Of a stretch of 64,000 nucleotides of DNA, positions 32,868 to 62,034 are shown piece by piece. The position numbers were made by a program, and so were the translations under genes. The stretch spans positions 358,591 through 422,590 of the forward strand of contig NZ_ML769313.1 in NCBI RefSeq assembly GCF_009720365.1, written 5' to 3'. Source of the DNA: Catellatospora paridis. Lineage in GTDB: Bacteria; Actinomycetota; Actinomycetes; Mycobacteriales; Micromonosporaceae. Position 1 is the first letter of the stretch, and the number at the start of each line of letters is the position of its first letter. The notes under the pieces were generated by a model. It was not told the DNA's origin and ran no database searches. It saw only the letters and a list, made by a program, of their open reading frames with translations.

Positions 32868-32879
32868 GAGAACCGACCG

Positions 32880-33992
32880 ATGACCGAAATGCTGCGCGCC
32901 CCCGCCGAGACCAAGTACGCCGAGGAGCTGGACTGGCTGGAGTCGATCGACGACGGCCCGAGGCCGTTCTCGTGGCGGCTGAGCCCGAAGATGGTGCGGC
33001 TGTTCGTCCTGGGCAGCGAGCGCGCCGACGGCCTTGACCGCGACGTCGCCCAGAAGTGGTTCGGCGACCGCAGTTTCGTCGAGCGGGCCATCGTCACCCT
33101 CGCCTCCGACCGGGGCCTGCTGCTCATCGGCGACCCGGGCACCGGCAAGAGCTGGCTGGCTGAGCTGCTGGCCGCCGCGATCAGCCGCAACTCGACGCTG
33201 GTCGTGCAGGGCACCGCGGGCACCACCGAGGACCACATCAAGTACTCCTGGAACGTGTCCGCGGTCATCGCCAACGGCCAGTCCCGCGCCTCGATGATCC
33301 CGTCGCCGATCATGACGGCGATGGAGCAGGGCGTCATCGGCCGGTTCGAGGAGCTGACCCGTTCCACCAGCGACGTGCAGGACGCCCTGATCTCGATCCT
33401 GTCCGAGAAGTACGTCTCCATCCCCGAACTCGACGACGACAACATCGTGTTCGCCAAGCCCGGCTTCTCCATCATCGCCACGGCCAACAGCCGCGACCGG
33501 GGCGTCAACGACCTGTCGTCGGCGCTCAAGCGCCGGTTCAACTTCGTGCGTATCCCGGTGGTCACCAACAAGAAGAGCGAAGCCGAGATCGTACGGTTCC
33601 GCACCGTCGAACTGCTGCGACGTCACCAGATCGAGCTGGACGTGCCGCCGACGCTGCTCGACATCCTGCTGCAGAGCTTCGCCGACCTGCGCGCCGCCGC
33701 GGCGTCGGCGGGCAGCGACGACGAGAAGCTGGAGTCGGCGCTGTCCACCGCCGAGCAGATCGGCGTCCTCGAAGACGCGATCCTGCACAGCAACTTCTTC
33801 GGCGACCGGTCACTGCGGGCGCAGACCCTCGCCGGTTCGCTGGTCGGGTCGCTGGCCCGCCGCACCCCCGAGGACCTGGCCATCCTCAACAAGTACTGGC
33901 ACGGGGTCGTCGAGCCGCGCAGCAAGGCCGAGGGCGGGTCGTGGACCGAGTTCCTCGAAGGCGGCCGCGAAGCGATCAAGACCCTGTCATGA
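32880..33992 (+). CDS. MoxR-type AAA+ ATPase
   Basis: A 370-residue AAA+ ATPase. Walker A is G-D-P-G-T-G-K-S near residues 84-91. The Walker B region reads V-I-G-R-F-E-E-L (about 155-162), lacking the usual Asp-Glu pair, with Glu at both positions. Sensor 1 is A-T-A-N-S-R-D and the arginine finger region is L-K-R-R-F-N-F. AAA+ ATPases of this group unfold or remodel partner proteins, here presumably the VWA or DUF5682 product. The stop overlaps the next start by ATGA. Confidence 0.93.
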   Translation: MTEMLRAPAETKYAEELDWLESIDDGPRPFSWRLSPKMVRLFVLGSERADGLDRDVAQKWFGDRSFVERAIVTLASDRGLLLIGDPGTGKSWLAELLAAAISRNSTLVVQGTAGTTEDHIKYSWNVSAVIANGQSRASMIPSPIMTAMEQGVIGRFEELTRSTSDVQDALISILSEKYVSIPELDDDNIVFAKPGFSIIATANSRDRGVNDLSSALKRRFNFVRIPVVTNKKSEAEIVRFRTVELLRRHQIELDVPPTLLDILLQSFADLRAAAASAGSDDEKLESALSTAEQIGVLEDAILHSNFFGDRSLRAQTLAGSLVGSLARRTPEDLAILNKYWHGVVEPRSKAEGGSWTEFLEGGREAIKTLS

Positions 33993-46075: not shown

Positions 46076-46396
46076 GACCTGCTCCTCGGTGAGGCACCGG
46101 AGACCGGCGGATCCGGATGGCCGTGGCGGCGGGCACCGTTCGGCCTGAATGGAGCGAACGGTAATCTTGTCGATACCTGGATGCAAGATACCGACATTCA
46201 TTCGAAATATTTATAGGTCAAAGCTCTCAAGATTTTGCACGACGGGCATCCGTGGCTGGCCGGGACCGTGCTGTCCGATATGTAGCGGCGTCGCTGGGAT
46301 GTGCAGCGTGAACAGGAAACGAACGTGTCGACGTAGAGGTCGTCCATAGACGAGTCCCGTTCCCTCGACAATCCGCCGTGTGGTAGGACTGTCGCC
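46076..46396. other. divergent promoter region, start of the biosynthetic cluster (321 bp)
   Basis: An AT-rich island (46180-46250) within otherwise GC-rich DNA, with an ATCTTG (46164-46169) / CAAGAT (46184-46189) inverted repeat. It must contain promoters of the discoidin protein (minus) and of the P450-led cluster (plus). No gene is seen. Confidence 0.5.
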
Positions 46397-47596
46397 ATGG
46401 ACCTGGGGATGCTCCTTTCCGAGCAGGGACGCGTGGATCCGCCCGCGCACTACGCGAGCCTGCACCGCGAGGGCGTCGCGCAGGCCGTGGACGAGAACGC
46501 GCAGGGCTTCGCCGTCGCCGTGTACGGCTTCGAGGCGGTCGGCCAGGTGCTCAAGGACTCCAGGTTCCGCCAGCTCGACGCGGCCTACCTGGACCTGCAC
46601 ACCCCACAGTGGCGGCGGCACCCCGCGCTGAGGGTGCTGCGCGACTCGATGTTCTTCACCGACGGCCCTGCCCACGACGGCGTACGGCAGATCATCGGGC
46701 GGGCCTTCACCGCGCGGCGGGTGGCCGCGCTGGAGCACGCGATGACCGACCTCACCCACCGGCTGCTCGACCGGCTGGCGCAGCTGGCCGCCGACGGGCC
46801 GGTCGAGTTCATGGGCGAGTTCGCCTACCTGCTGCCGAGCAGCGTGATGGCCGAGCTGCTGGGCGTGCCGCAGGATGACCTGGCCTGGTTCCGGCCGCGG
46901 GTGCTGGCGATCGGGGCGATCCTCGAACTCGACGGCGCGAACTGGCGCAACATGGTCCGCGCCGACGCGGCGGCCCGGGAGCTGTCGGCGTACTTCGCCG
47001 ACCTGGTCGCGCTGCGGCGCGCGGAGCCCCGCGACGACCTGATCAGCCTGCTGGCCGCCACCGATCTGGGCGACGACGCGCTCGTCGCCAACCTGATCAC
47101 CACCTTCAACGCCGGGTTCGTGACGACCACGCACCTGCTCGGCAACGGCCTGACGATGCTGCTGGAACGGCCGCAGCTGCGCGCGGAGCTGGCCGCCCAC
47201 AACGTCGGGTCCTACGTGGACGAGATGCTGCGGTTCGAGCCGCCGGTGCAGATCCTGGTCCGGTACGCGCCGGAGGACGCCGAGATCGAGGGCGTGCCCT
47301 GCCCGGCGGGCCAGGCGGTGCTCGTGATGATCGGCGCGGCGAACCGGGACCCGGCGCGGTTCACCGACCCGGACGCCTTCGACCCGGCCCGGCCCGACCC
47401 GGGGTCGCTCAGTTTCGGCTTCGGCCCGCACTACTGCCTCGGCGCGGCGCTGAGCCGCCTGGAAGGCCAGGTCGCGTTCCCGGCGCTGTTCGAAAGGTTC
47501 CCCGAGCTGGCCCTGGCACAGCAGCCCGGCAACGCGCCCAAGCCGCTGATCCTGCGGGGACACGACACGCTCACCGTCGCGTGCCATGGTGTCTGA
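46397..47596 (+). CDS. cytochrome P450, first gene of the biosynthetic cluster
   Basis: A 399-residue cytochrome P450 of the CYP105/107-like bacterial type. The I-helix has A-G-F-V-T-T-T-H-L (usual A-G-x-x-T). The E-x-x-R motif E-M-L-R is at Glu276-Arg279. The heme loop F-G-F-G-P-H-Y-C-L-G carries the Cys347 ligand. It likely oxidises the product or an intermediate of the NRPS/PKS assembly line. Electron partners (ferredoxin, reductase) are not seen nearby. It overlaps the next gene by 11 bp, so the two are coupled. Confidence 0.95.
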   Translation: MDLGMLLSEQGRVDPPAHYASLHREGVAQAVDENAQGFAVAVYGFEAVGQVLKDSRFRQLDAAYLDLHTPQWRRHPALRVLRDSMFFTDGPAHDGVRQIIGRAFTARRVAALEHAMTDLTHRLLDRLAQLAADGPVEFMGEFAYLLPSSVMAELLGVPQDDLAWFRPRVLAIGAILELDGANWRNMVRADAAARELSAYFADLVALRRAEPRDDLISLLAATDLGDDALVANLITTFNAGFVTTTHLLGNGLTMLLERPQLRAELAAHNVGSYVDEMLRFEPPVQILVRYAPEDAEIEGVPCPAGQAVLVMIGAANRDPARFTDPDAFDPARPDPGSLSFGFGPHYCLGAALSRLEGQVAFPALFERFPELALAQQPGNAPKPLILRGHDTLTVACHGV

Positions 47597-49130
47597 GGGC
47601 GACTACGTCAGGCGCGGGCTGGAGCTGTTCGCGCATCACGGCACGGCCGAGGCGATCGTGCACGGCGACCGGCGGATCACGTACGCGCAGCTGCGCGCGG
47701 GGGTGCTGGGCATGGCCGAGCGGCTGCGCGGGCACGGCGTCGCGGCGGGCTCGGCGATCGCGGTCCTGGCGGGCAACCAGCCCGAGGCCGTGTACGTGCA
47801 GCTGGCACTGCACCTGCTCGGCTGCCGCTCGGTGTGGGTGGCGCCCAACGCCCCGCCCTCGCTCAGCGCGCAGTACCTCGCGCTGGCCGAGGTGGACGGG
47901 TTCGTCTACGACGCCCGCACCCATGCCGCGCCGGGCGCGGCACTGGCCGGTCAGCTGCCGCACCTGCGGGTGCTGTGCATCGGTGCGGGCGGGACCGGAC
48001 CCGACCTGGCCGGGTCGTCCGGTGCCGCGCTGCCGCCGGCCGCCGACGCCGAGCCGCAGTCGCTGTTCCAGACCGGCGGCACGACGGGCCTGCCGAAACT
48101 GGTGCACCACCGGCACGACTTCTTCGCCGGCGTGCTCGCCGCGGCGCAGCGGCACCTGGACGCCGACGCCCCGCGGCTGCGGCAGCTGGCGGTGGCCGGC
48201 TTCTGGCACTCCAGCCAGCAGGCCGCGGGCCTGATCACCCTGTTCAGCGGCGGGCTGCTGGTGCAGCACGACGGCTTCGACGCGGGGCGGTTCCTGGCCA
48301 CCGTGCAGCGGGAGCGGATCACCGTGGCGACGCTGCCGCCGCCGATGCTGTACCAGGTGCTCGACCATCCCGACCTGGCGGGCACCGACACCGGCAGCCT
48401 GACCATGCTGTCGTGCGCGGGCAGCGCGATCGCGCCGTCCCGGCTGGCGCAGGCCATGGCGCGATTCGGGCCGGTGCTGCTGGTCGCGTACGGCATGAGC
48501 GAGGCGACGCTGCTCGCCGCGTACCCGACCGCGCAGCACGATCCGGGCCGTCCCGAGCGGCTGGCCTCGTGCGGCAGGCCGCTGCCCCCGTCCCGGGTCG
48601 AGATCCGCGACGGCGCGGGCCGGCCCGCCGCTGTCGGCGAGGTGGGGGAGGTGTGGGCGGCGGCGCGGCTGATGACCTCCGGCTACTGGGGCCGTCCCGA
48701 ACTGACCGCGCAGACGCTGGTCGACGGCTGGCTGCGCACCGGGGACGTCGGCTACTTCGACGCGGACGGCTACCTGTACCTCGTCGACCGGGCCAAGGAC
48801 ATGATCGTGACCGGCCTGACCTCGTCCAACGTGTACTCCCGCACGGTGGAGGACGTGCTGGCCGCCCATCCGGCGGTCAGTGCCGCCGCGGTGATCGGCG
48901 TGCCCGACGACGAGTGGGGCGAGGCCGTGCACGCGGTGCTCCAGCTCCATCCGGGCGTCTCGGTCGACGTCGACGAATTGCGGCAATGGTGTGTGGAGCG
49001 CCTCAATTCACTATGGGCGCCGCAGACCGCGGACATCGTGGAGCGCCTTCCACTGACCGCGCTAGGCAAGATCGACAAACGGTTGCTGCGGGAGAAATAC
49101 CTGGAAAACAGGGGTATTGTCGCGCGATAG
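47586..49130 (+). CDS. AMP-forming acyl-CoA/aryl-acid ligase
   Basis: A 514-residue adenylating enzyme (ANL family). The phosphate-binding loop T-G-G-T-T-G-L-P-K is at 163-171. The Y-G-M-S-E-A motif and G-W-L-R-T-G-D follow. The C-terminal catalytic Lys495 is in L-G-K-I-D-K. It activates a carboxylic acid as an acyl-AMP, then to CoA or a carrier protein. Stand-alone ligases of this kind supply the starter acid of NRPS/PKS lines. It is not attached to a carrier domain. Substrate cannot be read from sequence. Confidence 0.92.
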   Translation: MVSEGDYVRRGLELFAHHGTAEAIVHGDRRITYAQLRAGVLGMAERLRGHGVAAGSAIAVLAGNQPEAVYVQLALHLLGCRSVWVAPNAPPSLSAQYLALAEVDGFVYDARTHAAPGAALAGQLPHLRVLCIGAGGTGPDLAGSSGAALPPAADAEPQSLFQTGGTTGLPKLVHHRHDFFAGVLAAAQRHLDADAPRLRQLAVAGFWHSSQQAAGLITLFSGGLLVQHDGFDAGRFLATVQRERITVATLPPPMLYQVLDHPDLAGTDTGSLTMLSCAGSAIAPSRLAQAMARFGPVLLVAYGMSEATLLAAYPTAQHDPGRPERLASCGRPLPPSRVEIRDGAGRPAAVGEVGEVWAAARLMTSGYWGRPELTAQTLVDGWLRTGDVGYFDADGYLYLVDRAKDMIVTGLTSSNVYSRTVEDVLAAHPAVSAAAVIGVPDDEWGEAVHAVLQLHPGVSVDVDELRQWCVERLNSLWAPQTADIVERLPLTALGKIDKRLLREKYLENRGIVAR

Positions 49131-49216: not shown

Positions 49217-49266
49217 TGTCGAACCCCCACTCGGACGTGTTCGTGTCATCGGAGGCTGCGCGGAAT

Positions 49267-49638
49267 ATGTACCGCACCATGCTCAAGTCCAAGGTCCACC
49301 GGGCCACCGTCACCCAGGCCGAGCTGCACTACGTCGGCTCGCTGACGCTGGACCCCGACCTGATGGACGCCGCCGACCTGCTCCCCGGTGAACTCATCCA
49401 CGTCCTGGACGTCACCAACGGGGCCAGGCTCGAGACATACGTCATCGAGGGTGTGCGGGGCAGCGGCGTGGTCTGTGTCAACGGCGCGGCCGCGCACCTG
49501 ATCCACCCGGGCGACCTGGTCATCATCGCGGCGTACGCGCTCATGACCGACGACGAGGCGCGCGACGCCAAGCCGAAGGTCGTCTTCGTCGACGAGGCCA
49601 ACCGCATCGCCTCGGTGCACAGCGATCCCGCCGTCTGA
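49267..49638 (+). CDS. panD: aspartate 1-decarboxylase (pyruvoyl-type)
   Basis: A 123-residue proenzyme that cleaves itself at Gly24-Ser25 to create a pyruvoyl cofactor and converts L-aspartate to beta-alanine. The cleavage site Y-V-G-S (residues 22-25) and the conserved [10 protein letters not shown] start are present. V-N-G-A-A-A-H and H-P-G-D-L-V-I-I complete the family match. GGAGG lies 11 bases before ATG 49267. Normally this enzyme serves pantothenate synthesis. Here, inside a biosynthetic operon and without panB/panC, it more likely supplies beta-alanine as a building block. This is inference. Confidence 0.93.
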
Positions 49639-49641
49639 GCC

Positions 49642-50733
49642 ATGACTAACCGGCACCACATCGCCGTCGTCGGCAGCGGCGCGCTGGCGACCTCGATCTG
49701 CGAGTCGCTGGCCTCGCTCGCGCCGCCGCTCGGCGCGCTGAACGCGGCCCCGATCGAGGTCACCGTGCTCGCCCGCAACCCCGACGCGGTGGCGGTGATC
49801 GCCCGGCAGTGCCGGGCCCGGGCCGCCGTCGCCGGCACGGCGATCAGCTTCACCGGCGAACGGCTCGGCGACGAGACCGCCACCCTGGCCCGGCTGCAGC
49901 CGACCTACCTGGTGTGCTGCGCGTCCGCGCAGTCGCCGTACGAGAAGGTGCACCGGCCGTCGCCGTGGACCGCGCTGACCGCCGCGGCCGGGTTCGGGGC
50001 GACGCTGCCGCTGCAGGCCACCGTCGCGGTGCGGCTGGCCCGCGCGATCGGCACGGCCAGCCCGCACACCGCGCTGATCAACGGCTGCTTCCCCGACGCG
50101 GTCAACCCGCTGCTGGCCGCCATGGGGCTGCCGGTGCTCTGCGGCATCGGCAACGTCGCCACCCTGGCGGCCTGCCTGCAGGCGGCGCTGGGGCTGCCCG
50201 ACCAGCGCCGCCTCGCGGTGCTCGGCCACCACGCGCACCTCGACGCCCCGGACGATCCGGGCGACGACGTGCTGGCGTGGCGCGACGGCAGGCCGGTGTC
50301 CGGGGTGTCGGCGCTGCTGGCACCCGACCGGGCCCTGCCGCGTCCGGCGCTCAACGCGATCGCCGGGCACGCCGCGGCACGCCTGCTCATCGACCTGCTG
50401 TCGGGCGCGGAGGTGTACACCAGCCTGCCCGGACCGCTCGGCCTGCCCGGCGGCTACCCGGTCCGGCTGGCCGACGGCGGCCTCGCGCTGAACCTGCCGG
50501 GGTTCAGCCCGGCGGAGGCGATCGAGTGGAACGTGCGCGCCGGCCGCCGGGACGGGATCGAGCTCGGCGGCGGCCGCGTCCGGCACCTGCCGGCGGCGGT
50601 CTCCGCCCTGGAGCCCCACCTGCCCGAGCTGGCGCAGGGCTGGGACGCCACCGACTACGACGCGGTGCAGGACCTGTTCCGCGTGCTGCGCCGACGGCTG
50701 CGGGCCACGAGCCCGCGCCCGGCACTCATCTGA
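49642..50733 (+). CDS. NAD-dependent dehydrogenase, LDH/MDH-like fold
   Basis: A 363-residue oxidoreductase with an N-terminal Rossmann motif (A-V-V-G-S-G-A-L-A-T-S). The mid-region N-G-C-F-P-D-A-V-N-P-L-L and G-I-G-N-V-A-T-L correspond to the N-P-x-D and G-x-G-T segments of lactate/malate dehydrogenases, and G-H-H-A-H to the catalytic His loop. Overall similarity is remote, and the usual substrate-binding Arg residues are not obvious. It begins three bases after panD. It may reduce or oxidise a keto/hydroxy acid used by the assembly line (inference). Confidence 0.65.
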   Translation: MTNRHHIAVVGSGALATSICESLASLAPPLGALNAAPIEVTVLARNPDAVAVIARQCRARAAVAGTAISFTGERLGDETATLARLQPTYLVCCASAQSPYEKVHRPSPWTALTAAAGFGATLPLQATVAVRLARAIGTASPHTALINGCFPDAVNPLLAAMGLPVLCGIGNVATLAACLQAALGLPDQRRLAVLGHHAHLDAPDDPGDDVLAWRDGRPVSGVSALLAPDRALPRPALNAIAGHAAARLLIDLLSGAEVYTSLPGPLGLPGGYPVRLADGGLALNLPGFSPAEAIEWNVRAGRRDGIELGGGRVRHLPAAVSALEPHLPELAQGWDATDYDAVQDLFRVLRRRLRATSPRPALI

Positions 50734-50768: not shown

Positions 50769-52139
50769 GTGCTCACGACAGCGACCGTCCCGGTGACCCG
50801 CAATCTCATCGTCGACTACTACGAGGTCATCGCGGCCGCCGTCGACCGGCTGGGCGCGGGCCCCGGCGGCGCGGCGGGCACCGCCGCCTTCGCACCCGGG
50901 TTCGACCTGCCCGCCCTGACCGACGACGTGCGCCAGTTCTTCGCCGCGGCCACCGCGACGTGGCGGGAGCTGGGCGCGCACGGCGGCCACGGCGTGCAGT
51001 TCATGGATCTGACCGGCAACCCCGGCACGCACACCACCAAGACGTTCCCGTCCATGCTCATCGTGGCGCGGGCGGTGGAGCACATCCGGCGCACCGGTGA
51101 GTCGATCTGCATCTTCACCCCCACCTCGGCGAACAAGGGCATCGCCCTGCGCGACGCGGTCGGCCGGGCGATCGCCGCGAAGCTGGTCACGCCCGAGCAG
51201 CTGCGCGTCGTCGTGCTCGCCCCCGGCTCGACGCGGCACAAGTTCCGCCGCGACCCGCTGTCGGCCGACGCCGCGCTGCGGGTCGCGAACCCGCTGCTGC
51301 GCTTCGGGGGCGACGAGCCCGAGGGGGTCAAGGCGCTCGGCCGGGCCTTCGTCGACGCATACGCGCAGGAGGCGTACGACAAGCACGGCACCACCCTGTG
51401 GTTCTCCCTGGCCCTGCCGAACTACCTCGTCGCCGACGCCGCCCGCGCCGCGTTCGAGCTGGACGCCGCCCCGGCGATCGCCGCCGCCCCGCGCTGGCAC
51501 GCGCACGCCGTCTCCAGCGCGTTCGGCCTGCTGGGCTACAACCTGGGCCGCGACGTGCTGGAGGACTCGGGCCGCGCGGACGGCTCGCCGCGTCCCGGAT
51601 TCCTGCTCGTGCAGCATCTGGGCACCCCGGACATGGTCCTCAACCTGCGGCACGGCTCGTTCTCCCGGGACCGGCTGCCGGCATACCGCAGGGACGCCGC
51701 GACCGGGCTGTGGGCGCAGGACGCCGACTCGCACTTCCCGGCCGTGACCGGCGACCCCGGCGAGGTGCTCGACCCGACCTTCTACACGCACCAGCCGGTC
51801 ACCTCGCCCGCGATGAACGACCTCATCGCCCGGTACGGCGGCGACGGCATCACGGTGTCGCGGCACGAGTGCGTCGCCCGCTACCCGCAGCTGCGCGACT
51901 GGCTGCGCAACACTCCCTGCGAGCTGCCCGCAGACCCGGCCGACCTGCGCGAATGGTCGATCGTCATGGCGCTCACCGGGGTACTCAACGCCATCGACCG
52001 GGGGCTCGTGCCCGCCGGGCGGGAGATCGTCGTGCACGGCTCGGGCAGCTACCGCGACGACGACTACGCGGTGTGCGAGCCGGACGCCGAGGTGTCCACG
52101 GTGGAGGAGATCGCGGCGGCGGTCCTGGGCGGCCGCTGA
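50769..52139 (+). CDS. PLP-dependent threonine-synthase-like (DUF6002-like) enzyme
   Basis: A 456-residue protein with the fold-type II PLP enzyme pattern. L-T-G-N-P-G-T-H-T-T-K-T-F (about 80-92) provides the Lys Schiff base (T-T-K). F-T-P-T-S-A-N-K-G-I-A-L-R (about 115-127) resembles the P-T-S-G-N substrate loop of threonine synthase, cysteine synthase and diaminopropionate synthases. A late H-G-S-G-S-Y-R-D-D closes it. Such enzymes make unusual amino acids such as 2,3-diaminopropionate or dehydro amino acids by beta replacement. I think related proteins are catalogued as DUF6002. GTG 50769 with GAAGGAGC upstream. Confidence 0.65.
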   Translation: MLTTATVPVTRNLIVDYYEVIAAAVDRLGAGPGGAAGTAAFAPGFDLPALTDDVRQFFAAATATWRELGAHGGHGVQFMDLTGNPGTHTTKTFPSMLIVARAVEHIRRTGESICIFTPTSANKGIALRDAVGRAIAAKLVTPEQLRVVVLAPGSTRHKFRRDPLSADAALRVANPLLRFGGDEPEGVKALGRAFVDAYAQEAYDKHGTTLWFSLALPNYLVADAARAAFELDAAPAIAAAPRWHAHAVSSAFGLLGYNLGRDVLEDSGRADGSPRPGFLLVQHLGTPDMVLNLRHGSFSRDRLPAYRRDAATGLWAQDADSHFPAVTGDPGEVLDPTFYTHQPVTSPAMNDLIARYGGDGITVSRHECVARYPQLRDWLRNTPCELPADPADLREWSIVMALTGVLNAIDRGLVPAGREIVVHGSGSYRDDDYAVCEPDAEVSTVEEIAAAVLGGR

Positions 52140-54568
52140 TGGCGATCGTCGTGCCCCGGGCGGCGCTGGACGCGCTGGCCCGTGCCTGCGCCGTGCCCGC
52201 CGAGCACGCCGCCCGCGCAGCCGTGGCCCTGCTGGCCCGCCGCTACACCGGTCGCGCCGTGCAGACCGTGCGGTCGCCCGACGGCATCGCCACGTTCGAC
52301 CTGACCACCGACCAGGCCGTCCGGGACCTGGTCGCCACCGATGAGGTTGTCCGGGACCAGGTCGCGCCGCATGGCGGCGAACAGCTCGCCGACCTGGCCG
52401 TGCTGCCCGGCGGCGGCGGTCTGGTCGTGTCCGGCTGCCCGGCGGAGCTGGCCGCGCCGTTCGCGGCGGACATGGCGACACTGCTCGCCGTGATGGCCGC
52501 CGAGCCGGAGCGGTCCACCGTGGACCTGCTGCCGGAGTCCGCGTACGAGGACGCTCGCCCGGTCGACCGGGCGGCGCTGCACGGCGGGCCGCGCCGGGAG
52601 CCGACCGGATGGGGGCCGGGGGACACGATCTGTTCGGCGTTCGCCGCGCAGGTGGCCCGGCACCCGGACCGGGCCGCGGTGCTCGCCGACGACGGGGAGC
52701 CGACGTACCGGCAGCTCGGATCGGCCGTGGTCGCCACCGCGGCGGCCGTTCAAGCCGCGGCCGGTGACGGCGGCGGCACGCGCCGGGCGGCGCTGCTGTG
52801 CCGCCACGGCGCGACCACGGTCACCGGGCTGCTCGCGGCGCTGACGAGCGGCCGGGCGTACGTGCCGCTGGAGCCCAGCTTCCCGGCCGCGCGCCTGGCG
52901 CACATCCTCGCCGACAGCGACGCCGACGTGCTGCTCGTCGACGCCGCGCATGCCGACCTGGCCCACCGGATCGCCGCCGAGGCGGGCCGCCCGGACCTGA
53001 CGACGGTCCACATCGTCACGACGGCCCCGCCGGGTGACCTCGACGAGCTGGTGGCGGCTCTGGTCGGACCGGCGACGCCGGACGATGCGGCGTACCTGCT
53101 CTACACCTCCGGCTCGACCGGCGCGCCCAAGGCCGTGGTGCAGAGCCACGGCAACGTGCTGTTCGGGGTCGCCAACCACATCCGCAACTTCGCGCTCACC
53201 CCGGCCGACCGGACCAGCGTGCTGACCTCGTTCGGGTACGACATGGCGGTCACCGACCTGTTCGGCGCGATCCTGTCCGGGGCCGCCGCGGTGCCGTCCG
53301 ACATCCGCGAGCACGGCCTCGGCCACCTCGCGCAGACCATCGCCCGGCACGCGGTGACGGTCTACCACTCCACCCCGACCGTCTACCGCTACCTGATCGC
53401 CGGGCTCGGCGCCGGCGGACGGCTGCCGAGCGTGCGGGCGGTGCTGCTCGGCGGCGAGGAGGTCACCCGCCACGACGTGGAGCTGTGCCGCCGCCACTTC
53501 GCCGCCGGGGCGGTGTTCGTCAACGGGTACGGCACCACGGAGATCAGCTTCGCGGCGCAGCACCACCTCGGTCCCGGCGCCGCGCTGGAGCACGCGGTGG
53601 TGCCGATCGGGCACCCGCTGCCCGGCATCGACGTGGTGCTCGTGGACGCCGCCGGGCGTCCGGCCTGCCTGACCGGCGAGGTGGTGGTCCGCTGCGCGCA
53701 CGTGGCGCTCGGCTACCACGGGCAGCCGGAGCTGACCGCCGGTCGGTTCCGCGAGTATCGCGGCACGCGCGCCTACTGGACCGGCGACGTCGCCCGGCGG
53801 CTGCCGGACGGGCGGCTGGTCTTCCTGGGCCGCGCCGACCGCCTCGTCAAGATCCGTGGTTACCGCGTCGAGCTGGGCGAGGTCGAGTCGCGGCTGGCCG
53901 CGCTGCCCGGCGTCGGCCAGGCCGCCGTCGTCGCCCGTCCGGCCAGGGACGGCACCAAAGAGATCATCGCGTACGCCGTGCCCGCGCGCGACGCGGCCGT
54001 GGAGCCGGACCGGCTGCGGGCGGCGCTGGCCGAGACGCTGCCCGAGTACATGGTGCCGCGGGCCGTGGTCGTGGTCGGCGCGCTGCCGATGGGCGACACC
54101 GGCAAGCTCGACGTGCGGGCACTGCCGGAACCTGCCGCCGTCCCGGCGCAGCCGCGCCGCGGCCCGGACGGGCCTGATCCGCTGGAGCAGGTGATCGCGG
54201 CGGCGTGGTGCGAAGCGCTCGGTGTCGCCCAGGTCGACCGGCACACCGCGTTCTTCGACCTCGGCGGGCATTCGCTGTTGCTGGCGCTGGTCCAGGAGCG
54301 GCTGGCGGCGGTGCTCGGCGAGCGGATCTCGATGCTGCGGCTGCTGGAGTTCCCGACCGTCGCCGGACTCGCCGCCCACCTGCGACCCGCCAGCCTCACG
54401 GCTGCCGCCGACGCGCCGCCGTCGGTGGACGTCGGGTCGGCAGGCGCGCCGTCCACGGCAGATGTGCCCGCCACGGCCGACGCCGGGCAGGCGCACGTCG
54501 CCGATCGGATGCGTCGCCGGCGCGCGGCGCGGCAGGGCTCGGCGGCACAGGTGGAGACGGCGTCATGA
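52139..54568 (+). CDS. NRPS: vestigial C region, adenylation, carrier (A-T)
   Basis: An 809-residue NRPS protein. Residues 1-150 look like a shortened condensation-domain remnant without the H-H-x3-D-G motif. The adenylation domain follows (about 165-600): T-S-G-S-T-G near 325, F-G-Y-D-M-A with the amino-group-binding Asp kept, and G-Y-G-T-T-E. The carrier domain has G-G-H-S-L with Ser712. The Asp at the position known as 235 suggests an alpha-amino acid rather than beta-alanine. It starts one base inside the previous stop and overlaps the next gene by ATGA. The C-terminal 70 residues are a low-complexity A/P/D linker. Confidence 0.9.
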   Translation: MAIVVPRAALDALARACAVPAEHAARAAVALLARRYTGRAVQTVRSPDGIATFDLTTDQAVRDLVATDEVVRDQVAPHGGEQLADLAVLPGGGGLVVSGCPAELAAPFAADMATLLAVMAAEPERSTVDLLPESAYEDARPVDRAALHGGPRREPTGWGPGDTICSAFAAQVARHPDRAAVLADDGEPTYRQLGSAVVATAAAVQAAAGDGGGTRRAALLCRHGATTVTGLLAALTSGRAYVPLEPSFPAARLAHILADSDADVLLVDAAHADLAHRIAAEAGRPDLTTVHIVTTAPPGDLDELVAALVGPATPDDAAYLLYTSGSTGAPKAVVQSHGNVLFGVANHIRNFALTPADRTSVLTSFGYDMAVTDLFGAILSGAAAVPSDIREHGLGHLAQTIARHAVTVYHSTPTVYRYLIAGLGAGGRLPSVRAVLLGGEEVTRHDVELCRRHFAAGAVFVNGYGTTEISFAAQHHLGPGAALEHAVVPIGHPLPGIDVVLVDAAGRPACLTGEVVVRCAHVALGYHGQPELTAGRFREYRGTRAYWTGDVARRLPDGRLVFLGRADRLVKIRGYRVELGEVESRLAALPGVGQAAVVARPARDGTKEIIAYAVPARDAAVEPDRLRAALAETLPEYMVPRAVVVVGALPMGDTGKLDVRALPEPAAVPAQPRRGPDGPDPLEQVIAAAWCEALGVAQVDRHTAFFDLGGHSLLLALVQERLAAVLGERISMLRLLEFPTVAGLAAHLRPASLTAAADAPPSVDVGSAGAPSTADVPATADAGQAHVADRMRRRRAARQGSAAQVETAS

Positions 54569-55950
54569 GCGACGACGACCTGATCGCCGTCGTCGGCCTG
54601 GCCTGCCGGGTGCCCGGTGCGCCGGACGTCGCGACGCTCTGGCGCAACCTGCTGGACGGGGTGGACGCGGTCCGCCGATCCACGCCGGCGGAGCTGGCGG
54701 CCGCGGGTCTGCCCGTGGACGGCACGTACGTGCCCGCGTTCGGCCTGCTGGACGGGCTGGAGGACTTCGACGCCGCGCTGTTCGGATACGGCGGGCACGA
54801 GGCCGCGCTGCTGGACCCGCAGCACCGGATCTTCCTGGAGACGGCCTGGCACGCGCTGGAGGACGCCGGGCTCGACCCCGCGCGGGCACCGGCCCCGATC
54901 GGGGTGTTCGCGAGCTGCGGCGTGAACCGCTACCTGCGCCACCACCTGCTCGGCAACCCGGCCGTGAAACCGGCGGGCGCACTGCCCGACGACTGGGACG
55001 ATGCGCTGGCCGGGGGCACCTGTGACTACCTGCCGACCCGGGTCGCGTACGCGATGGGGCTGACCGGACCGGCCGTGGCCGTGCAGACGGCGTGCTCGTC
55101 GTCGCTGGTCGCGGTGTGCCAGGCGGCACAGGGCCTGCTCGACTTCCGCTGCGACGCCGCGATCGCGGGCGGGGCGGCGGTCGTGTCGACCCGGCAGCTC
55201 GGCTACCGCTACCGCCCCGGCGGGACGTGGGCCGCCGACGGGGTGTGCCGCCCGTACGACGCGGACGCCACCGGGCAGGTCTTCGGCAACGGCGGCGGTG
55301 CCGTGGTGCTCAAGCGGCTGGCCGACGCGGTCGCGGACGGCGATCACGTGTACGCGGTGCTGGCCGGCTGGGCGGTGAACAACGACGGCTCGGCGCGTGC
55401 CGGGTTCAGCGTGCCCGGCGTGGCGGGTCAGGCGGCCGTGGTCGCCGAGGCCCTGGCCGCCGCCGACTGGGACGCGGGCAGCGTCGGCTTCGTCGAGGGC
55501 CACGGCAGCGGCACGCCCTTCGGCGACGCGATCGAGGTCGAGGCGCTGACCCGCGCCTTCCGGGCGTCGGGCGCGCAGCAGGGACGATGCGTGCTCGGCT
55601 CGATGAAGCCCAACACCGGCAACCTCGACGCCGCCGCCGGAGTGCTCGGCCTGATCAAAGCCGTGCTCGCCGTACGCGACGGGCAGATCCCGCCCACCCT
55701 GCACTTCCGCCACCCGCACCCCGATGTGGACCTGGCGGCGTCGCCCTTCACCGTCAGCGCCGAGGTCCGCGACTGGCCGGGTCCGCGCCGGGCCGGGGTC
55801 AGCTCGTTCGGGCTGGGCGGCACCAATGCGCACGTGCTCGTCGCGCAGGCTCCCGCGCACGTGTCGGCCGAGCCGCGGATGCCGGTGCCCGGCTACGCGT
55901 TCCAGCGCAGCCGCCATTGGATCGAGCCCGTGGCGGCCGGCCATGCGTGA
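54565..55950 (+). CDS. stand-alone ketosynthase (KS) with altered active site
   Basis: A 461-residue KS of modular-PKS type. Cys177 in T-A-C-S-S-S is present, and His313 in E-G-H-G-S-G-T. The second catalytic His, normally in N-I-G-H-L, is replaced: the sequence reads P-N-T-G-N-L, giving Asn353. The KS is followed directly by the post-AT linker motif Y-A-F-Q-R-S-R-H-W, with no AT domain. Without the second His, decarboxylative condensation is doubtful; transacylation or condensation of a preformed nucleophile remain possible. Overlaps both neighbours. Confidence 0.92.
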   Translation: MSDDDLIAVVGLACRVPGAPDVATLWRNLLDGVDAVRRSTPAELAAAGLPVDGTYVPAFGLLDGLEDFDAALFGYGGHEAALLDPQHRIFLETAWHALEDAGLDPARAPAPIGVFASCGVNRYLRHHLLGNPAVKPAGALPDDWDDALAGGTCDYLPTRVAYAMGLTGPAVAVQTACSSSLVAVCQAAQGLLDFRCDAAIAGGAAVVSTRQLGYRYRPGGTWAADGVCRPYDADATGQVFGNGGGAVVLKRLADAVADGDHVYAVLAGWAVNNDGSARAGFSVPGVAGQAAVVAEALAAADWDAGSVGFVEGHGSGTPFGDAIEVEALTRAFRASGAQQGRCVLGSMKPNTGNLDAAAGVLGLIKAVLAVRDGQIPPTLHFRHPHPDVDLAASPFTVSAEVRDWPGPRRAGVSSFGLGGTNAHVLVAQAPAHVSAEPRMPVPGYAFQRSRHWIEPVAAGHA

Positions 55951-58429
55951 GCCGGACCAGGCAGGGCGGCCGAAGGAACCACTCGAGGTGGCCCCGGACC
56001 CGGGCTGGGTGCGCGCGGTCGGGCGGCCCGTCGTGGCCGGTGACTTACCGCCGGACGGGCTCGTGCCGCTGGGCGACACCGGGTGGCAGGTGTGGCGGTC
56101 GGCCGTGCTGCGCGCACCCGGCTTCCCGGCGACGGGCCTGGACCTGCTGGCCGCGCCCGAGTGCGCAAAGGAGGCCGACGCGCTGCTCGGCACGGGCGGC
56201 GACCGGGCCGCGTTCGACGGCGTGTTCGCGGCCGCGACCCGGCGGATGACCGCGCGCCTGCACGACATCGCCGCCGATCCGCTGTTCCGCGAGGCCGTGA
56301 CCTGGCAGAGCCTCAACGCCGTCGAAGCCCTCGACGGACTGCTGCGCGCCGGTCCGGACGCGAACCGCAACTCGCGCCACCGCCCGCGCGAGATCCTGGT
56401 GACCCGCTACTGGCAGCGCTACTGCGCCAAGAACGACACCATCGGGTTCTTCGGCCCCGTCTGCTGGGCGTCGTTCACCGACGGCGATGTCGCCGCCCGG
56501 GTCGAGCCCGGTCCGGACCTGGTCCGCGCCCGCGTGGTCGACCTCGAACGGCGGGTCCTGTCCGCGTACGCCGACCGGCTCGCCGCCGACCCCCGCTTCG
56601 GGCCGTGGCTGCCCGTGACCCGGCAACCCCACCTGGCGGTGCGCGGCGACGAGCTGCTGGAGGCGGGCCTGCCGCCGCGCCCGCTGACCCCGGCGCAGGC
56701 CGCCCTGCTCGGCGCGAGCGACGGCACGCGCAGCGCCCACGAGGTGGCCGCGCTCGCGCTCGCCGATCCGCGGACCGGGCTGCGCGTCGCGTCCGACGCC
56801 CTGCTGGCGCTGGCCCAACTGGCCGACCAGGGCTTGCTGCGCCGGGGCGTCGAGCTGCCGTTGACCGTCGCCGCCGAAGCCGAACTGCGCCGACGCCTGG
56901 CCGCCATCGCCCACCCGGCATTGCGCGACGAGGCGCTCGCCGGTTTGGCCCGGCTGCTCACCGCCCGCGACGGGCTCGCGGACGCGGCGGGCGACGCCGA
57001 CGCGGTCCGGGCAGCCCTGCTGCGTCTCCAGAACGAGTTCGTCGCGGTGACCGGCGGCGACGTGCTCCACCGCCCCGGGGCCACCTACGCCGGGCGCGGT
57101 CTCGCCTACGAGGAGACGCTGCGCGACCTCGACGTCTCCTTCGGCGAGCCGCTGCTGACCATGCTCGCCGACACGCTCGTGCCGCTGCTGGAGGCTGCCC
57201 GGTGGCTGACCGCCGCGATCGCCGCCGCGTTCACCGCCGCGCTGCGCGAGCTGTACGACGATGCCGCTGCTGACAGACCGGTCGCGCTGGGCGACATCTT
57301 CGACGCCGCCCTCGGTGTCCTGTTCGGGCAGGGGCCGGTCGCCGACGTGCTCGCCGACTTCACCTCCCGGTGGACGCGGCTGCTCGGCCTGACCGGGTCG
57401 AGCGCGCCCGATGAGCTGGACCGGACCGGCTCCGGCCCGATCACCCTCGATCCGGCCGGTGAGCTGGACGGGACCGGCTCCGGCCCGATCACCCTCGATC
57501 CGGCCGAGGTGCGCGCCGGAGTCGCGCGGTTGTTCGGCGCGGCCGCGCCCGGCTGGACCGCGGCCCGTCTGCACAGCCCCGACCTGCACCTGTGCGCGCC
57601 GAACGCGCAGACCCTGGCTGACGGCGACTTCACCGTGGTGCTCGGCGAGCTGCACGTCTCCTGGCTCACCTGCGACAGCGGCACCCTCACCCGCTTCCAC
57701 CCCGATCCCGGCGCGCTGCGCGCCGCGCTGCACCGCGACCTGGGTGACCGGACCCTGCTGCTCTACCCGACGGACTTCCCCGAGTTCACGGCCCGGATCG
57801 CGTTCACCCTCGACGGTCCTGACGACGTCCGGCTCGGCTACACCCCGGCGCCGGTGCCGGATCCGGCGCAGGTCCTGCCGCTGGCCGCGGTGACCGTGTC
57901 GCCGGTGGACGGTGAGCTGACCGGCCGGGCCCCGGACGGGCGGACCTGGCCGCTGCTGGAACTGTTCGGCCCGTTCCTGTCGTCGCGGGCGGTCAACGCG
58001 TTCAAGGTCGCCGCCGACGGCGCGTACACCCCGCGGGTGAGCATCGGCCGCCTCGTCGTGCACCGCCAGACCTGGCGCACCACCGTCGCGGACTGCGCAG
58101 TGGACCCCGAACTCGCCGACGAGGCTGCCCGCTACCTGGCCGTACGCCGGTGGCGGGACCGCCTTGGGCTGCCCGAGCAGGTGTTCGTCCGGGTCGGCAC
58201 CGAGGTGAAACCGGTCTACGTCGACTTCACCAGCCCGGCGTACGTGGCCGCCTTCGTCGCGATGGTCCGGGCCGCGTCGCGCACCGGCGGCAGCCGCACG
58301 CCGCTGACGGTCTCCGAGATGCTGCCGGGCCCCGAGCAGGCGTGGGTGCCGGACGCGGCCGGCCGGCGCTACTTCAGCGAGCTGCGGATGGCGATCCGCG
58401 ACCCGGCGTCCGCGCCGACGAGGAGATGA
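55943..58429 (+). CDS. LanB-type lantibiotic-dehydratase-like protein
   Basis: An 828-residue protein matching the N-terminal glutamylation domain of class I lantibiotic dehydratases. R-Y-W-Q-R-Y-C-A-K-N-D-T-I-G-F-F-G-P near 155-173 corresponds to the family's conserved motif. LanB enzymes use glutamyl-tRNA to activate Ser/Thr, and relatives (PEARLs) add amino acids from aminoacyl-tRNA. No lanthipeptide precursor or cyclase gene is visible here, so it probably acts on a carrier- or assembly-line-bound intermediate. A 16-residue tandem repeat occurs at about 491-522. It overlaps the KS gene by 8 bp. Confidence 0.85.
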   Translation: MREPDQAGRPKEPLEVAPDPGWVRAVGRPVVAGDLPPDGLVPLGDTGWQVWRSAVLRAPGFPATGLDLLAAPECAKEADALLGTGGDRAAFDGVFAAATRRMTARLHDIAADPLFREAVTWQSLNAVEALDGLLRAGPDANRNSRHRPREILVTRYWQRYCAKNDTIGFFGPVCWASFTDGDVAARVEPGPDLVRARVVDLERRVLSAYADRLAADPRFGPWLPVTRQPHLAVRGDELLEAGLPPRPLTPAQAALLGASDGTRSAHEVAALALADPRTGLRVASDALLALAQLADQGLLRRGVELPLTVAAEAELRRRLAAIAHPALRDEALAGLARLLTARDGLADAAGDADAVRAALLRLQNEFVAVTGGDVLHRPGATYAGRGLAYEETLRDLDVSFGEPLLTMLADTLVPLLEAARWLTAAIAAAFTAALRELYDDAAADRPVALGDIFDAALGVLFGQGPVADVLADFTSRWTRLLGLTGSSAPDELDRTGSGPITLDPAGELDGTGSGPITLDPAEVRAGVARLFGAAAPGWTAARLHSPDLHLCAPNAQTLADGDFTVVLGELHVSWLTCDSGTLTRFHPDPGALRAALHRDLGDRTLLLYPTDFPEFTARIAFTLDGPDDVRLGYTPAPVPDPAQVLPLAAVTVSPVDGELTGRAPDGRTWPLLELFGPFLSSRAVNAFKVAADGAYTPRVSIGRLVVHRQTWRTTVADCAVDPELADEAARYLAVRRWRDRLGLPEQVFVRVGTEVKPVYVDFTSPAYVAAFVAMVRAASRTGGSRTPLTVSEMLPGPEQAWVPDAAGRRYFSELRMAIRDPASAPTRR
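57413..57508 (+). repeat. in-frame 48-bp tandem duplication in the LanB gene
   Basis: Two adjacent 48-bp units (57413-57460 and 57461-57508) encode nearly identical 16-residue blocks (E-L-D-x-T-G-S-G-P-I-T-L-D-P-A). It looks like a recent duplication, probably in a flexible linker. Confidence 0.9.
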
Positions 58430-58431
58430 TC

Positions 58432-61400
58432 ATGTCGACGGAACACGGTGCGGTCCTGTCCTACCCCGACCGCAGGTATCCCGACCTGGTCGCCGACCAC
58501 GCGGCGAGGTCCCCGGACGCGGTCGCGGTCCGGCAGTGGGACACCGTGCTCACGTACCGGCAGCTGGGCGCGGCCGCCGGAGAAATCGCTGCCCGGCTGC
58601 GGGCGCACGGCCCGCAGCCGCTGGTCGGGGTGTGTGCCGATCGGCAGCCGATGCTGGTCGCCGGCCTGCTCGGGGTCCTGGCGTCGGGCGCTGCCTACGT
58701 GCCGCTGGACCCGGCCCTGCCGCCCGCCCGGCTGCGCGACATCGCCCGCGAGGCGGGCCTGCGCACGGTCTTCTGCGACCCGCTGGGCGCGAACCTGCTG
58801 GCCGATGCGGACCTGGAGTTGCTGCCCCTCCCCGACGCGCCGTCTCCCGGCCCGTCGAGCGACGGCACGCCCGACCGCGCCCCGGCAGGTAGCGCGCCAG
58901 CCGGTAGCGCGCCAGGCGATCATGCATCAGACGGTCACGCACCAGCCGGTCACGGATCGGCCGACGCGTCCTCGGCCGATCGCGGACTTCTCGGCGGTGC
59001 CGCGGCGGCCGACGATCTCGCCTACGTGATGTTCACGTCGGGGTCGACCGGCCGTCCGAAGGGCGTGATGATCTCGCACGAGGCGCTGACCGAGTTCGTC
59101 ACCAGCCTCGCCGACCTCACGGGCCTCCGCCGCGACAGCGTCTCGCTCGGGTTCGCGTCGATCGGGTTCGACGCCTCCGTCATCGACGTGCTGGCACCGC
59201 TCGCGGCGGGCGGCACGGTCGCGCTCGCCGGGACGGCCGACCGGGCGGACCCGACCCGGCTGCAGCGGTTCTGCGCCGAGCACCGGGTCACGGTCGCGTT
59301 CGTGCCCCCGGCGGTGCTGCCGGTGCTCGACCCGTCCGGCCTGCCGGACCTCCGGGTGGTGCTCACCGGCAGCGAGGCTCCCGGCCCGGAGCAGGTGGCC
59401 CGCTGGACGGCAGGCGGCCGCCGCTTCCTCAACCTGTTCGGGCCCACCGAGACGACCGTGCTGGTCACCTGGTTCGAGGCGAGCGGCGACTGGGACCGGC
59501 CGCTGCCGATCGGCCGCCCGGCCGCCAACCACCGGGTGTACGTCGTCGACGAGCGGCTGCGCCGGGTCCCCGACGGCGTGCCGGGCGAGCTGCTGGCCGG
59601 GGGCGCGGGGCTGGCCCGCGGCTACCTGGGCGCACCGGACCTCACCGAGGAGCGCTTCGTGCCCGACTCGTTCTCCGGGGTGCCCGGCGCGCGGCTCTAC
59701 CGCACCGGCGACCTGGTGGTCCGGCAACCGGACGGGCTGCTGCACTTCCTCGGACGGGTCGACCGGCAGGTGAAGATCCGCGGTCAGCGCGTCGAGATCG
59801 GCGAGGTCGAGGCGGTGCTACGCAGCCATCCCGCGGTCGGGCACGCGGCCGTCGCCGCGGTGGACGGTCCCGGGGGCACGACGCTGACGGCGTTCACGAC
59901 CGGTGCCGCGAGCCCGCAGGAGCTGCACGAGCACTGCGCCGCCCGGCTCGGGGCCGCGATGGTCCCCACCCGGATCACCGTCGTGCCGCGGCTGCCGCTG
60001 CTGTCCAGCGGCAAGGTCGACCTCGACCGGCTCGTCGCGGACACCGCGTCGCCCGTCGACGAGACGCCGTTCGCCGCGCCGGCCACGCCGGTGGAGACCG
60101 AGGTCGCCGCCGTCTGGGCCGAGCTGCTGGGCCTGGCCCGGGTCGGCCGCGACGACGACTTCTTCGACACCGGCGGGCATTCCATCACCGCGATGCGACT
60201 GGTCGCCGCGCTGCGCCCGCGGCTGCGCCGCGACGTGGCCATCGAGGACGTGCTGCAGGGCCGCACCCTGCGGGCGATCGCGGCCCGCGCGTCGGCGGCG
60301 GCCGCGCTGGGCGACGAGCCGCCGGTACGCGGACGCCCGCCCGCGCTGTCGCCAGCGCAGCAGCGCCTGTGGTTCCTGGAGCGCTACTCGCCCGAAGCGG
60401 CGGCCGCCTACAACATCGTGCTCGCCGAACGCCTGCGCGGACCCCTCGACCGGCAGGCGCTCGGTGACGCGCTGACCGCCGTCGCCGCCCGCCACGAGGT
60501 GCTGCGCTGGCGTATCCCGGACGCGGACGGGGTGCCGTACGCGGTGGTCGACCCGGTCGGTCCGGTGCCGCTGCCGGTGACCGACCTGAGCGCGCTGCCC
60601 CCGGCCGAACGCGAACGTGAGCTCGCCGCACAGCTGGCCGCCGAGGCCGGCGGCCGGTTCCGGCTCGCCGCCGACGCGCTGTGGCGGCACCGGCTGTTCC
60701 GGCTGGGCGAGGACGAGCACGTGTGGGCGGTCACCGCCCACCACGCCGTGTTCGACGGCTGGTCACAGGCGATGCTCTACGACGACCTGGCCACCGCGTA
60801 CGCCGGCACGGCCCTGCCGCCGCTGCCCGCCACCTACGGCGACTACGTGGCCTGGCGGGCCGACCGGCGCGAGCAGCGCGCCGACAGCGACCTCGACTGG
60901 TGGACGTCCCACCTGGACGGCGCCCCGACCGTGCTGGAGGTGTCCGGCGACCGGCCGCGCCCCGCCGAGCAGACCTACCCCGCCGGATACTGCGGCACCT
61001 GGCTCGACACCGACACCACCGCCGACCTGCACCGCTTCGCCCGCGTGCACGGCGCGACCCCGTCGGCGGTGCTGCTGGCCGCGTTCGGGCTGGTCCTGGC
61101 GAGCTGGGCCGGGCAGGACGAACTCGTCGTCGGCACCCCGGCCGTCGACCGCCGCCACCCCGACTTCGAGCCCATGGTCGGGTTCTTCGTCGACATCACG
61201 CCGCTGCGCCTGCACACCGATCCCGGCGGCAGCTTCGCCGCCCACGTGCGCGCGGCCCGCGACGAGCTGATCGCCGCGCTGGCCCACCCGGAAGCGCCCC
61301 TGGAACGCCTGGTGCAGGCGTTCAGGCTGGGCGGCCAGACGGTCCGCAGCCCGCTGGTCCAGGTGCTGTTCAACGTGTTCAACTTCGCCGCGCCCCGGCT

Positions 61401-62034
61401 GGACCTCAAGGGCCTGGTCAGCGAGCCGGTGCCGGTGCCCGCGCCGGGTTCGGCGTTCGACCTGACCCTCTACGGCGTGGAGCGCGACGGCCGGATGCGC
61501 CTGGAGGTCGTCCACAACAGCGACCTCTACGACACGTCCCGGATGGACCTGCTGCTCGACTCGCTACGGCAGGTGATCACACGCGGTGTCGCCGACGGCG
61601 ACCTGACCGGCGGCGAGCTCGCTCCTTCGCGTGGCGTGGTCGCCGTCGAGGTTCCCCGAGCCCGTGTGCGACCAGTGCGGCCGGACCAATCCGTCGGTGT
61701 GCCGCCGGTGACGGCGACCGAGCTCGCCGTCGCCGCCGTGTGGTGCGAGGTGCTGGGCCGTGAGGCCGTCGGGGCCGTGGACAACTTCTTCGACTCCGGC
61801 GGCGGCTCGCTGGCCGCGGTCACCGTGCAGCAGCGACTCAACCGGATGCTGGGCCGCGAACTGCGCGTCGTGGACCTGTTCCGTTATCCGACCGTCCGGG
61901 CGCTGGCGTCGTTCCTGGACGGCGCGACGGCCGCCGACGGCACCGACGACGCGGTCGCACAGGCGTTGCGGCGGGGCGCGGCCCGGCGCGCGCGGACCCG
62001 GCACCGCGCCGCAAGCGAAGGAGAGCCCCAGTGA
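58432..62034 (+). CDS. NRPS: A-T-C-T
   Basis: A 1200-residue NRPS. Adenylation domain about 10-545 with T-S-G-S-T-G-R-P-K (about 202-210) and F-D-A-S-V-I (amino-group Asp kept). Carrier T1 has G-G-H-S-I, Ser584. The condensation domain (about 620-1050) has an intact H-H-A-V-F-D-G motif (His770, His771, Asp775, Gly776). Carrier T2 is G-G-G-S-L, Ser1126. An unusual Ala/Gly/His-rich insertion (about 140-190) interrupts the A domain before the T-S-G-S-T-G loop. ATG 58432 has GAGGAG six bases upstream, overlapping the LanB stop. Confidence 0.93.
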   Translation: MSTEHGAVLSYPDRRYPDLVADHAARSPDAVAVRQWDTVLTYRQLGAAAGEIAARLRAHGPQPLVGVCADRQPMLVAGLLGVLASGAAYVPLDPALPPARLRDIAREAGLRTVFCDPLGANLLADADLELLPLPDAPSPGPSSDGTPDRAPAGSAPAGSAPGDHASDGHAPAGHGSADASSADRGLLGGAAAADDLAYVMFTSGSTGRPKGVMISHEALTEFVTSLADLTGLRRDSVSLGFASIGFDASVIDVLAPLAAGGTVALAGTADRADPTRLQRFCAEHRVTVAFVPPAVLPVLDPSGLPDLRVVLTGSEAPGPEQVARWTAGGRRFLNLFGPTETTVLVTWFEASGDWDRPLPIGRPAANHRVYVVDERLRRVPDGVPGELLAGGAGLARGYLGAPDLTEERFVPDSFSGVPGARLYRTGDLVVRQPDGLLHFLGRVDRQVKIRGQRVEIGEVEAVLRSHPAVGHAAVAAVDGPGGTTLTAFTTGAASPQELHEHCAARLGAAMVPTRITVVPRLPLLSSGKVDLDRLVADTASPVDETPFAAPATPVETEVAAVWAELLGLARVGRDDDFFDTGGHSITAMRLVAALRPRLRRDVAIEDVLQGRTLRAIAARASAAAALGDEPPVRGRPPALSPAQQRLWFLERYSPEAAAAYNIVLAERLRGPLDRQALGDALTAVAARHEVLRWRIPDADGVPYAVVDPVGPVPLPVTDLSALPPAERERELAAQLAAEAGGRFRLAADALWRHRLFRLGEDEHVWAVTAHHAVFDGWSQAMLYDDLATAYAGTALPPLPATYGDYVAWRADRREQRADSDLDWWTSHLDGAPTVLEVSGDRPRPAEQTYPAGYCGTWLDTDTTADLHRFARVHGATPSAVLLAAFGLVLASWAGQDELVVGTPAVDRRHPDFEPMVGFFVDITPLRLHTDPGGSFAAHVRAARDELIAALAHPEAPLERLVQAFRLGGQTVRSPLVQVLFNVFNFAAPRLDLKGLVSEPVPVPAPGSAFDLTLYGVERDGRMRLEVVHNSDLYDTSRMDLLLDSLRQVITRGVADGDLTGGELAPSRGVVAVEVPRARVRPVRPDQSVGVPPVTATELAVAAVWCEVLGREAVGAVDNFFDSGGGSLAAVTVQQRLNRMLGRELRVVDLFRYPTVRALASFLDGATAADGTDDAVAQALRRGAARRARTRHRAASEGEPQ

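Follow-up and report, generated by a model that had tools for sequence, protein, structure and literature searches.

A probable PEARL-type ligase gene within a non-ribosomal peptide and polyketide gene cluster of Catellatospora paridis

The gene and its neighbours

A stretch of 64,000 nucleotides from the 9.0-Mb genome of Catellatospora paridis (contig NZ_ML769313.1, assembly GCF_009720365.1), here called the window, carries a cluster of genes for non-ribosomal peptide synthetase (NRPS) and polyketide synthase (PKS) proteins and, in their midst, a gene for a LanB-like protein of 828 amino acids (Table 1). Judged from its sequence and by analogy with characterised relatives, this protein is probably an amide ligase of the peptide aminoacyl-tRNA ligase (PEARL) type that serves a non-ribosomal assembly line.

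The open reading frame (ORF) is intact, with 828 codons and no internal stop. A first-pass annotation made from the sequence alone had recognised a lantibiotic dehydratase N-domain in the product, and this is confirmed by Pfam (PF04738, Lant_dehydr_N, 102.9 bits, the cut-off being 28); beyond PF04738, Pfam gives nothing at E ≤ 0.001, and the protein is hence without the PF14028 elimination domain. The gene starts 8 bp inside the gene for the stand-alone ketosynthase (KS) KS1, the stop codon of which ends at 55950, and its own stop codon (58427-58429) overlaps by 4 bp with the following NRPS gene, the ATG of which lies at 58426. Both overlaps fit the cotranslation between a KS and an NRPS that the same annotation had proposed. 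Since 588 of 8000 scored candidates in a homologue search with the PF04738 protein fall at E ≤ 1e-3, the family match is not due to chance. Among the listed homologues more than 80% identical, the two that carry organism names are from Catellatospora, and the ratios of non-synonymous to synonymous substitution rates (dN/dS) against three Catellatospora orthologues are 0.30, 0.30 and 0.41, which indicates purifying selection. A search of the PDB with the single sequence P0001 returned nothing at E ≤ 1; a profile search matched TbtB (6ec7, E 1.6e-10).

Table 1. Genes of the cluster, in window coordinates (A, adenylation domain; T, thiolation domain; C, condensation domain; AT, acyltransferase domain; MFS, major facilitator superfamily)
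Feature	Coordinates	Strand	Basis
Cytochrome P450	46397..47596	+	PF00067 E 1.7e-29
Stand-alone acyl-CoA-ligase-like AMP ligase	47586..49130	+	PF00501/PF13193; closest solved chains are fatty-acyl-CoA ligases
Aspartate 1-decarboxylase PanD	49237..49638	+	PF02261 E 1.9e-51
Rossmann-fold dehydrogenase-like protein U363	49642..50733	+	Alignment A2; occurs with DUF6002
DUF6002 protein (start uncertain)	50769..52139	+	PF19465 E 3.6e-193; alignment A3
NRPS A-T	52139..54568	+	PF00501, PF13193, PF00550
KS1, stand-alone ketosynthase	54565..55950	+	PF00109/PF02801
Probable PEARL-type (LanB-like) ligase, 828 aa	55943..58429	+	PF04738 E 1.7e-29; residue test on alignment A1, controls from PF14028 loci, 49-locus set
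NRPS A-T-C-T	58426..62034	+	Pfam domains; C motif AHHAVFDG
KS2-AT-T	62031..65108 (window ends at 64000)	+	Pfam domains, motif reading
Stand-alone C domain	65116-66489	-	Pfam
MFS transporter, beyond the stand-alone C domain		-	Pfam

Relatives and their gene context

At E ≤ 1e-20, 59 of the 397 genomes from the order and 11 of the 394 in the class sample contain a PEARL protein, the window's own genome being counted in both. The context of these relatives was read from 99 loci with flanks of at most 10 kb, made up of a 49-locus set and a 50-locus set. These loci are related by descent, and the two sets share at least two records (L039 is L132, and L052 is L147) and perhaps more. The 50-locus set was drawn from 69 other distinct hit places, of which 19 were left out (G004, G006, G033, G058:C7, G073, G090, G111, G163:C95, G168, two in G171, G181:C60, G209, the second in G367, G389:C28, two in G393 and two in G394).

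An A or KS domain lies near the PEARL gene in 49/50 loci of the 50-locus set and 42/49 of the 49-locus set, and both domains are present in 39/50 and 37/49, respectively. Most relatives thus share the NRPS/PKS context of the window, and a recurring set of genes (A-T, KS, PEARL, A-T-C-T and KS-AT-T) is seen across related loci. Many loci carry at least two PEARL copies (32/50 and 11/49; 43 of the 99 rows together). Tandem pairs within one NRPS/PKS cluster occur in L021, L026, L027, L032, L109 and others, and L021 has three consecutive copies. A DUF6002 gene is present in 6/50 and 23/49 loci (29/99 together).

Conserved residues and the question of dehydratase activity

According to the available text of PMC11117183, Asp542 and Arg803 of TglB are kept in PEARLs only and are replaced by Tyr and Leu in split LanBs; one Arg, one Phe and one Glu are common to both groups. 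The corresponding text of PMC11962472 gives the BhaB counterparts of the TglB residues and names Tyr205 and Arg208 as tRNA-binding. We compared these reports with an alignment of 41 sequences (A1) that includes the window protein as P0002, the numbering of which, plus 15, is that of the 828-aa protein. All 41 sequences have D532, E554, H556, R693, E798, R800, Y141 and R144 in P0002 numbering, and at position F733, 39 have Phe and two have Tyr. D532 and E554 correspond to TglB 542 and 564, E798 and R800 to TglB 801 and 803, R693 to BhaB 715, and Y141 and R144 to BhaB 205 and 208; H556 is a conserved His. The Asp-Glu spacing (22) and the Glu-x-Arg motif equal those of TglB, and the Arg-Phe (40) and Tyr-Arg (3) spacings those of BhaB. 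In the 828-aa protein, the key residues are R57, Y156, R159, D547, E569, H571, R708, F748, E813 and R815; BhaB Arg429 lies outside the mapping.

Full-length PEARL copies in the 49-locus set retain the residue set, with some loci containing the gene in part. The exceptions are Phe to Tyr in several copies, Glu 554 to Asp in L046, L048 and L055, L018, which is unaligned at E798 and R800, and two short Allokutzneria proteins without the middle part, which deviate at R42 (L053) or at D532 and R800 (L056). For these two proteins (about 413-428 aa), the match to the PEARL profile is mainly N- and C-terminal, and they possibly resemble the half-size ATP-grasp-like relatives mentioned in the available text of PMC11117183.

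As controls, a profile derived from A1 was run on 20 loci carrying PF14028 and on L007, a RiPP-type locus (ribosomally synthesised and post-translationally modified peptide) in the C. paridis genome itself. The R800 column holds Val or Thr in all seven aligned LanBs linked to PF14028 (L088, L089, L092, L096, L097, L098 and L102). The D532 column aligned in the LanB frame at one dehydratase locus, L088, where it is also Asp.

The sole PF14028 match in the genome lies on another contig (C8), in L007, apart from the NRPS/PKS cluster; L007 encodes a LanB-like protein, the PF14028 protein, a YcaO protein, an M50 peptidase-like protein and an ATP-binding cassette transporter. Among the cluster proteins scanned, Pfam finds neither PF14028 nor a thioesterase; downstream of the window, the contig was covered for about 37.4 kb, with ORFs listed and the first few Pfam-scanned. 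The genome's only match to the LanC-like family PF05147 is on contig C5, in agreement with the first-pass annotation, which had seen no LanC in the window. That annotation had likewise seen no precursor peptide gene. Our search of the intergenic gaps between 46.2 and 68.3 kb (195, 106, 29, 52 and 119 bp), and hence also just past the window, yielded seven ORFs of 20-110 aa, none of which matched at full length across all four of the related loci L008-L011. Two of them overlap conserved gap DNA and have partial matches, a 28-aa ORF in two of these loci and an 84-aa ORF in three. The gaps searched thus contain no convincing gene for a precursor or scaffold peptide near the PEARL gene, and SnaE (see below) shows that a PEARL of an NRPS cluster can do without one.

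These data bear on a quite unlikely alternative, in which the protein is a dehydratase-type LanB: acting on a carrier-bound peptide, it would glutamylate the hydroxyl of a Ser or Thr, and the elimination protein would be encoded elsewhere. PF04738 is common to both kinds of enzyme, the genome does encode a PF14028 protein, and the dehydratase-type L088 has the same Asp at the D532 column. Against this, both the Asp and the Arg reported as PEARL-only in PMC11117183, as far as its available text goes, are in place, the aligned LanB controls have Val or Thr instead of that Arg, and the one PF14028 protein belongs to a separate YcaO-type locus. We therefore regard the 828-aa protein as probably PEARL-type and not a dehydratase: of the earlier label 'LanB/PEARL-type' the second half stands, whereas the missing elimination domain and the residues that fit PEARLs contradict a LanB that acts as a dehydratase. 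A lanthipeptide or other RiPP pathway was also considered and is rejected for the lack of PF14028, of LanC and of a convincing precursor gene nearby, together with the PEARL residues.

Comparison with SnaE and other known systems

An NRPS-linked enzyme using aminoacyl-tRNA was held in the first-pass annotation to be non-standard. The chemistry it suggested for the assembly line is probable on sequence grounds; the novelty does not hold, since the core idea is already published. PMC11212132 (2024), in its available text, describes SnaE from the threopeptin cluster of Stackebrandtia nassauensis, a direct precedent, and puts the NRPS/PKS clusters with such LanB-like proteins at about two thousand. 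Inactivation of snaE abolished the Thr-containing products, and SnaE adds Thr to a bis-arginyl ureido compound. In addition, PMC10548850 deals with a tRNA-utilising enzyme with a C-minus NRPS, and PMC12945691 is a related review.

By these descriptions, SnaE resembles the window protein in having PF04738 without the elimination domain, in its place in an NRPS-PKS cluster and in having no known precursor gene. The sna cluster encodes A-T-Curea-A-T and one KS-AT-T, whereas the window cluster has A-T, the stand-alone KS1, A-T-C-T with an ordinary C motif, KS2-AT-T, the dehydrogenase-like protein and DUF6002. NRPS and KS-AT-T within one cluster are thus common to both, although the AT and KS2 motifs are altered in the window. 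With TglB, BhaB and AmmB, as described in the available texts of PMC11117183 and PMC11962472, the window protein shares most ATP-grasp and tRNA-binding residues, mostly at the same spacings, and the lack of an elimination domain; these enzymes act on ribosomal scaffold peptides, whereas the window cluster has no convincing scaffold gene, and some tRNA-contact residues of BhaB are unmatched in the window protein. NisB, MibB and TbtB belong to the same PF04738 family (TbtB being the PDB profile match given above). Unlike them, the window protein has the Arg reported as PEARL-only and no PF14028 partner nearby; it also has the Asp so reported, which is present in the dehydratase locus L088 as well.

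The rationale given for SnaE in PMC11212132, again in its available text, is that a C domain bearing the signature EHHXXHDG carries out ureido chain reversal, which leaves an unactivated carboxylate. The family, the annotation and the NRPS-PKS context reported there would suit a SnaE-like enzyme acting after such a reversal in C. paridis as well. However, the window C domain reads AHHAVFDG, and a six-frame search found EHHXXHDG neither in the window nor in the following 37.4 kb nor in the 99 loci; it is also absent from loci L001-L086. A DNA match to the ureido motif occurs in 19 of the 59 genomes with a PEARL protein, the closest pair on one contig being about 43 kb apart (G145; distances were taken for same-contig pairs only). 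The C-domain motif largely refutes chain reversal, and we consider this version very improbable.

The published explanation of SnaE therefore seems to cover only part of the NRPS-linked PEARL clusters, because none of the 99 loci has the ureido motif and 43 of the 99 rows have at least two PEARLs. The spread of such clusters without the motif, the paired PEARLs and the KS and AT changes described below are not explained by the available text of PMC11212132.

Proposed mechanism

By analogy with TglB, BhaB and SnaE, the ligase would bind ATP in an ATP-grasp-like site and phosphorylate a small molecule of NRPS/PKS origin at its free carboxylate. The α-amine of an aminoacyl-tRNA would then attack the acyl phosphate, and the ligase would cleave the ester to the tRNA by hydrolysis, so that the small molecule gains one amino acid in all; glutamylation-elimination would play no part. 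We favour action after chain release, because many relatives bear a thioesterase on the same protein. The NRPS/PKS acid would first be released, then activated by ATP and attacked by the amine of the aminoacyl-tRNA, and hydrolysis of the tRNA would come last. A thioesterase domain is annotated on the PEARL protein in 35 of the 120 homologues listed and in P0056 seems, from the sequence judged by eye, to precede the PEARL part; in the window cluster itself, Pfam recognises none.

Alternatively, the PEARL could itself off-load the chain, with the aminoacyl-tRNA amine attacking the carrier thioester directly and no need for ATP. The overlapping genes, the NRPS domains on the listed homologue P0068 and the failure of Pfam to find a thioesterase in the window cluster speak for this. 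The conserved ATP-grasp residues, however, would then have no purpose, and the thioesterases on listed homologues imply hydrolysis before ligation; we consider direct chain release unlikely.

Several observations weigh against reading the window protein as a PEARL-type amide ligase of a non-ribosomal assembly line. The residue mapping uses published numbers and spacings, the sequences of TglB, BhaB and SnaE being outside A1; the BhaB Asp558-Glu575 spacing is 17 as against 22 here; and BhaB Gln201 and Arg197 fall on a Val/Leu/Ile/Ala column and a variable column of A1, respectively. The control is thin, with several alignments below 15 bits, and its one readable dehydratase residue at the D532 column, in L088, is the same Asp. 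The PDB profile search found TbtB alone, with NisB and MibB unmatched. No A or KS domain lies in the stretch examined in 7/49 and 1/50 loci, and this is not just a matter of short contigs, because L014, L044, L053 and L056 lack both domains although they are 14-22 kb long. Finally, the ureido logic that explains the free carboxylate in the case of SnaE is absent here.

Ketosynthase and acyltransferase motifs

KS1 of the window retains the Cys and HGSGT and has NTGN in place of NxGH. The same NxGN is found in 26 of the 27 readable KS1 sequences of DUF6002-bearing loci, and the remaining one, in L016, lacks the first His instead. For the record shared by L039 and L132, the second row was used in this tally, the first being the KS of KS-AT-T. 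In loci without DUF6002, the first-row KS has both His residues in 45 cases, some of them distant KSs, and Asn in two (L018, on a 12-kb contig, and L143, a distant KS); Asn also occurs in a second row of L054. These KS His residues serve decarboxylation. The pattern suggests a non-decarboxylating role of KS1 that is tied to DUF6002.

The second ketosynthase, KS2, reads EASATG for EAHGTG, with loss of the His, and the adjoining AT reads GHGAG for GHSxG, with loss of the nucleophilic Ser. Of 70 matched rows, 66 have GHS as the AT motif; the remaining four are Catellatospora L008-L010 and Rhizocola L011, and the window is the fifth. Across the 99 loci, close relatives of the stand-alone C domain (at least 65%; next 40%), of the acyl ligase (at least 66%; next 31%) and of the MFS transporter (at least 61%; no other) are found in L008-L011 only. 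In comparison with the Catellatospora orthologues, three in number, the dN/dS ratios are 0.13-0.22 (KS2), 0.03-0.32 (its T domain) and 0.29-0.46 (AT); the intact A-T gene has 0.35-0.39 and the PEARL gene 0.30-0.41. KS2 and its T domain are thus constrained. The AT ratio is no higher than those of the A-T and PEARL genes, and so gives no evidence of decay besides the lost Ser.

From these patterns we tentatively propose that Actinobacteria may possess a second common kind of tRNA-fed assembly line, in which a short acid made by NRPS/PKS is extended by one to three PEARLs in series without chain reversal. In Catellatospora and Rhizocola, the carbon-carbon step might be switched off, with the AT Ser and the KS His lost and KS2 and T constrained, and be replaced by amide chemistry via the additional C domain and the acyl ligase; this swap is a hypothesis drawn from co-occurrence. 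If the proposal is true, many non-ribosomal pathways draw on charged tRNAs, a count of PEARL genes may predict how many residues are added, and software that labels these genes 'lantibiotic dehydratase' mispredicts the products.

Other genes of the region

Cluster PanD is one of two in the genome, the second lying on contig C17, and since a copy exists elsewhere, the cluster copy probably supplies β-alanine. U363 weakly matches saccharopine or shikimate dehydrogenases and other proteins in Pfam and the PDB, with a best E of 0.014 for A2 against the PDB. DUF6002 is strongly conserved, with an invariant Lys and S-x-N motifs in A3, which we take to resemble those of fold-type II pyridoxal phosphate enzymes; A3 gave no match to PDB profiles, and no publication on DUF6002 was found in the open-access literature. 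Close relatives of the P450 (at least 84%) were seen only in the three Catellatospora loci among the 99 compared. Adjoining the cluster on the minus strand, an ORF of 1370 aa (42089-46201) has F5/8 type C and Ig-like (ASH-type) domains, and consecutive genes for VWA CoxE-like, AAA ATPase and DUF5682 proteins lie at 31482-36793.

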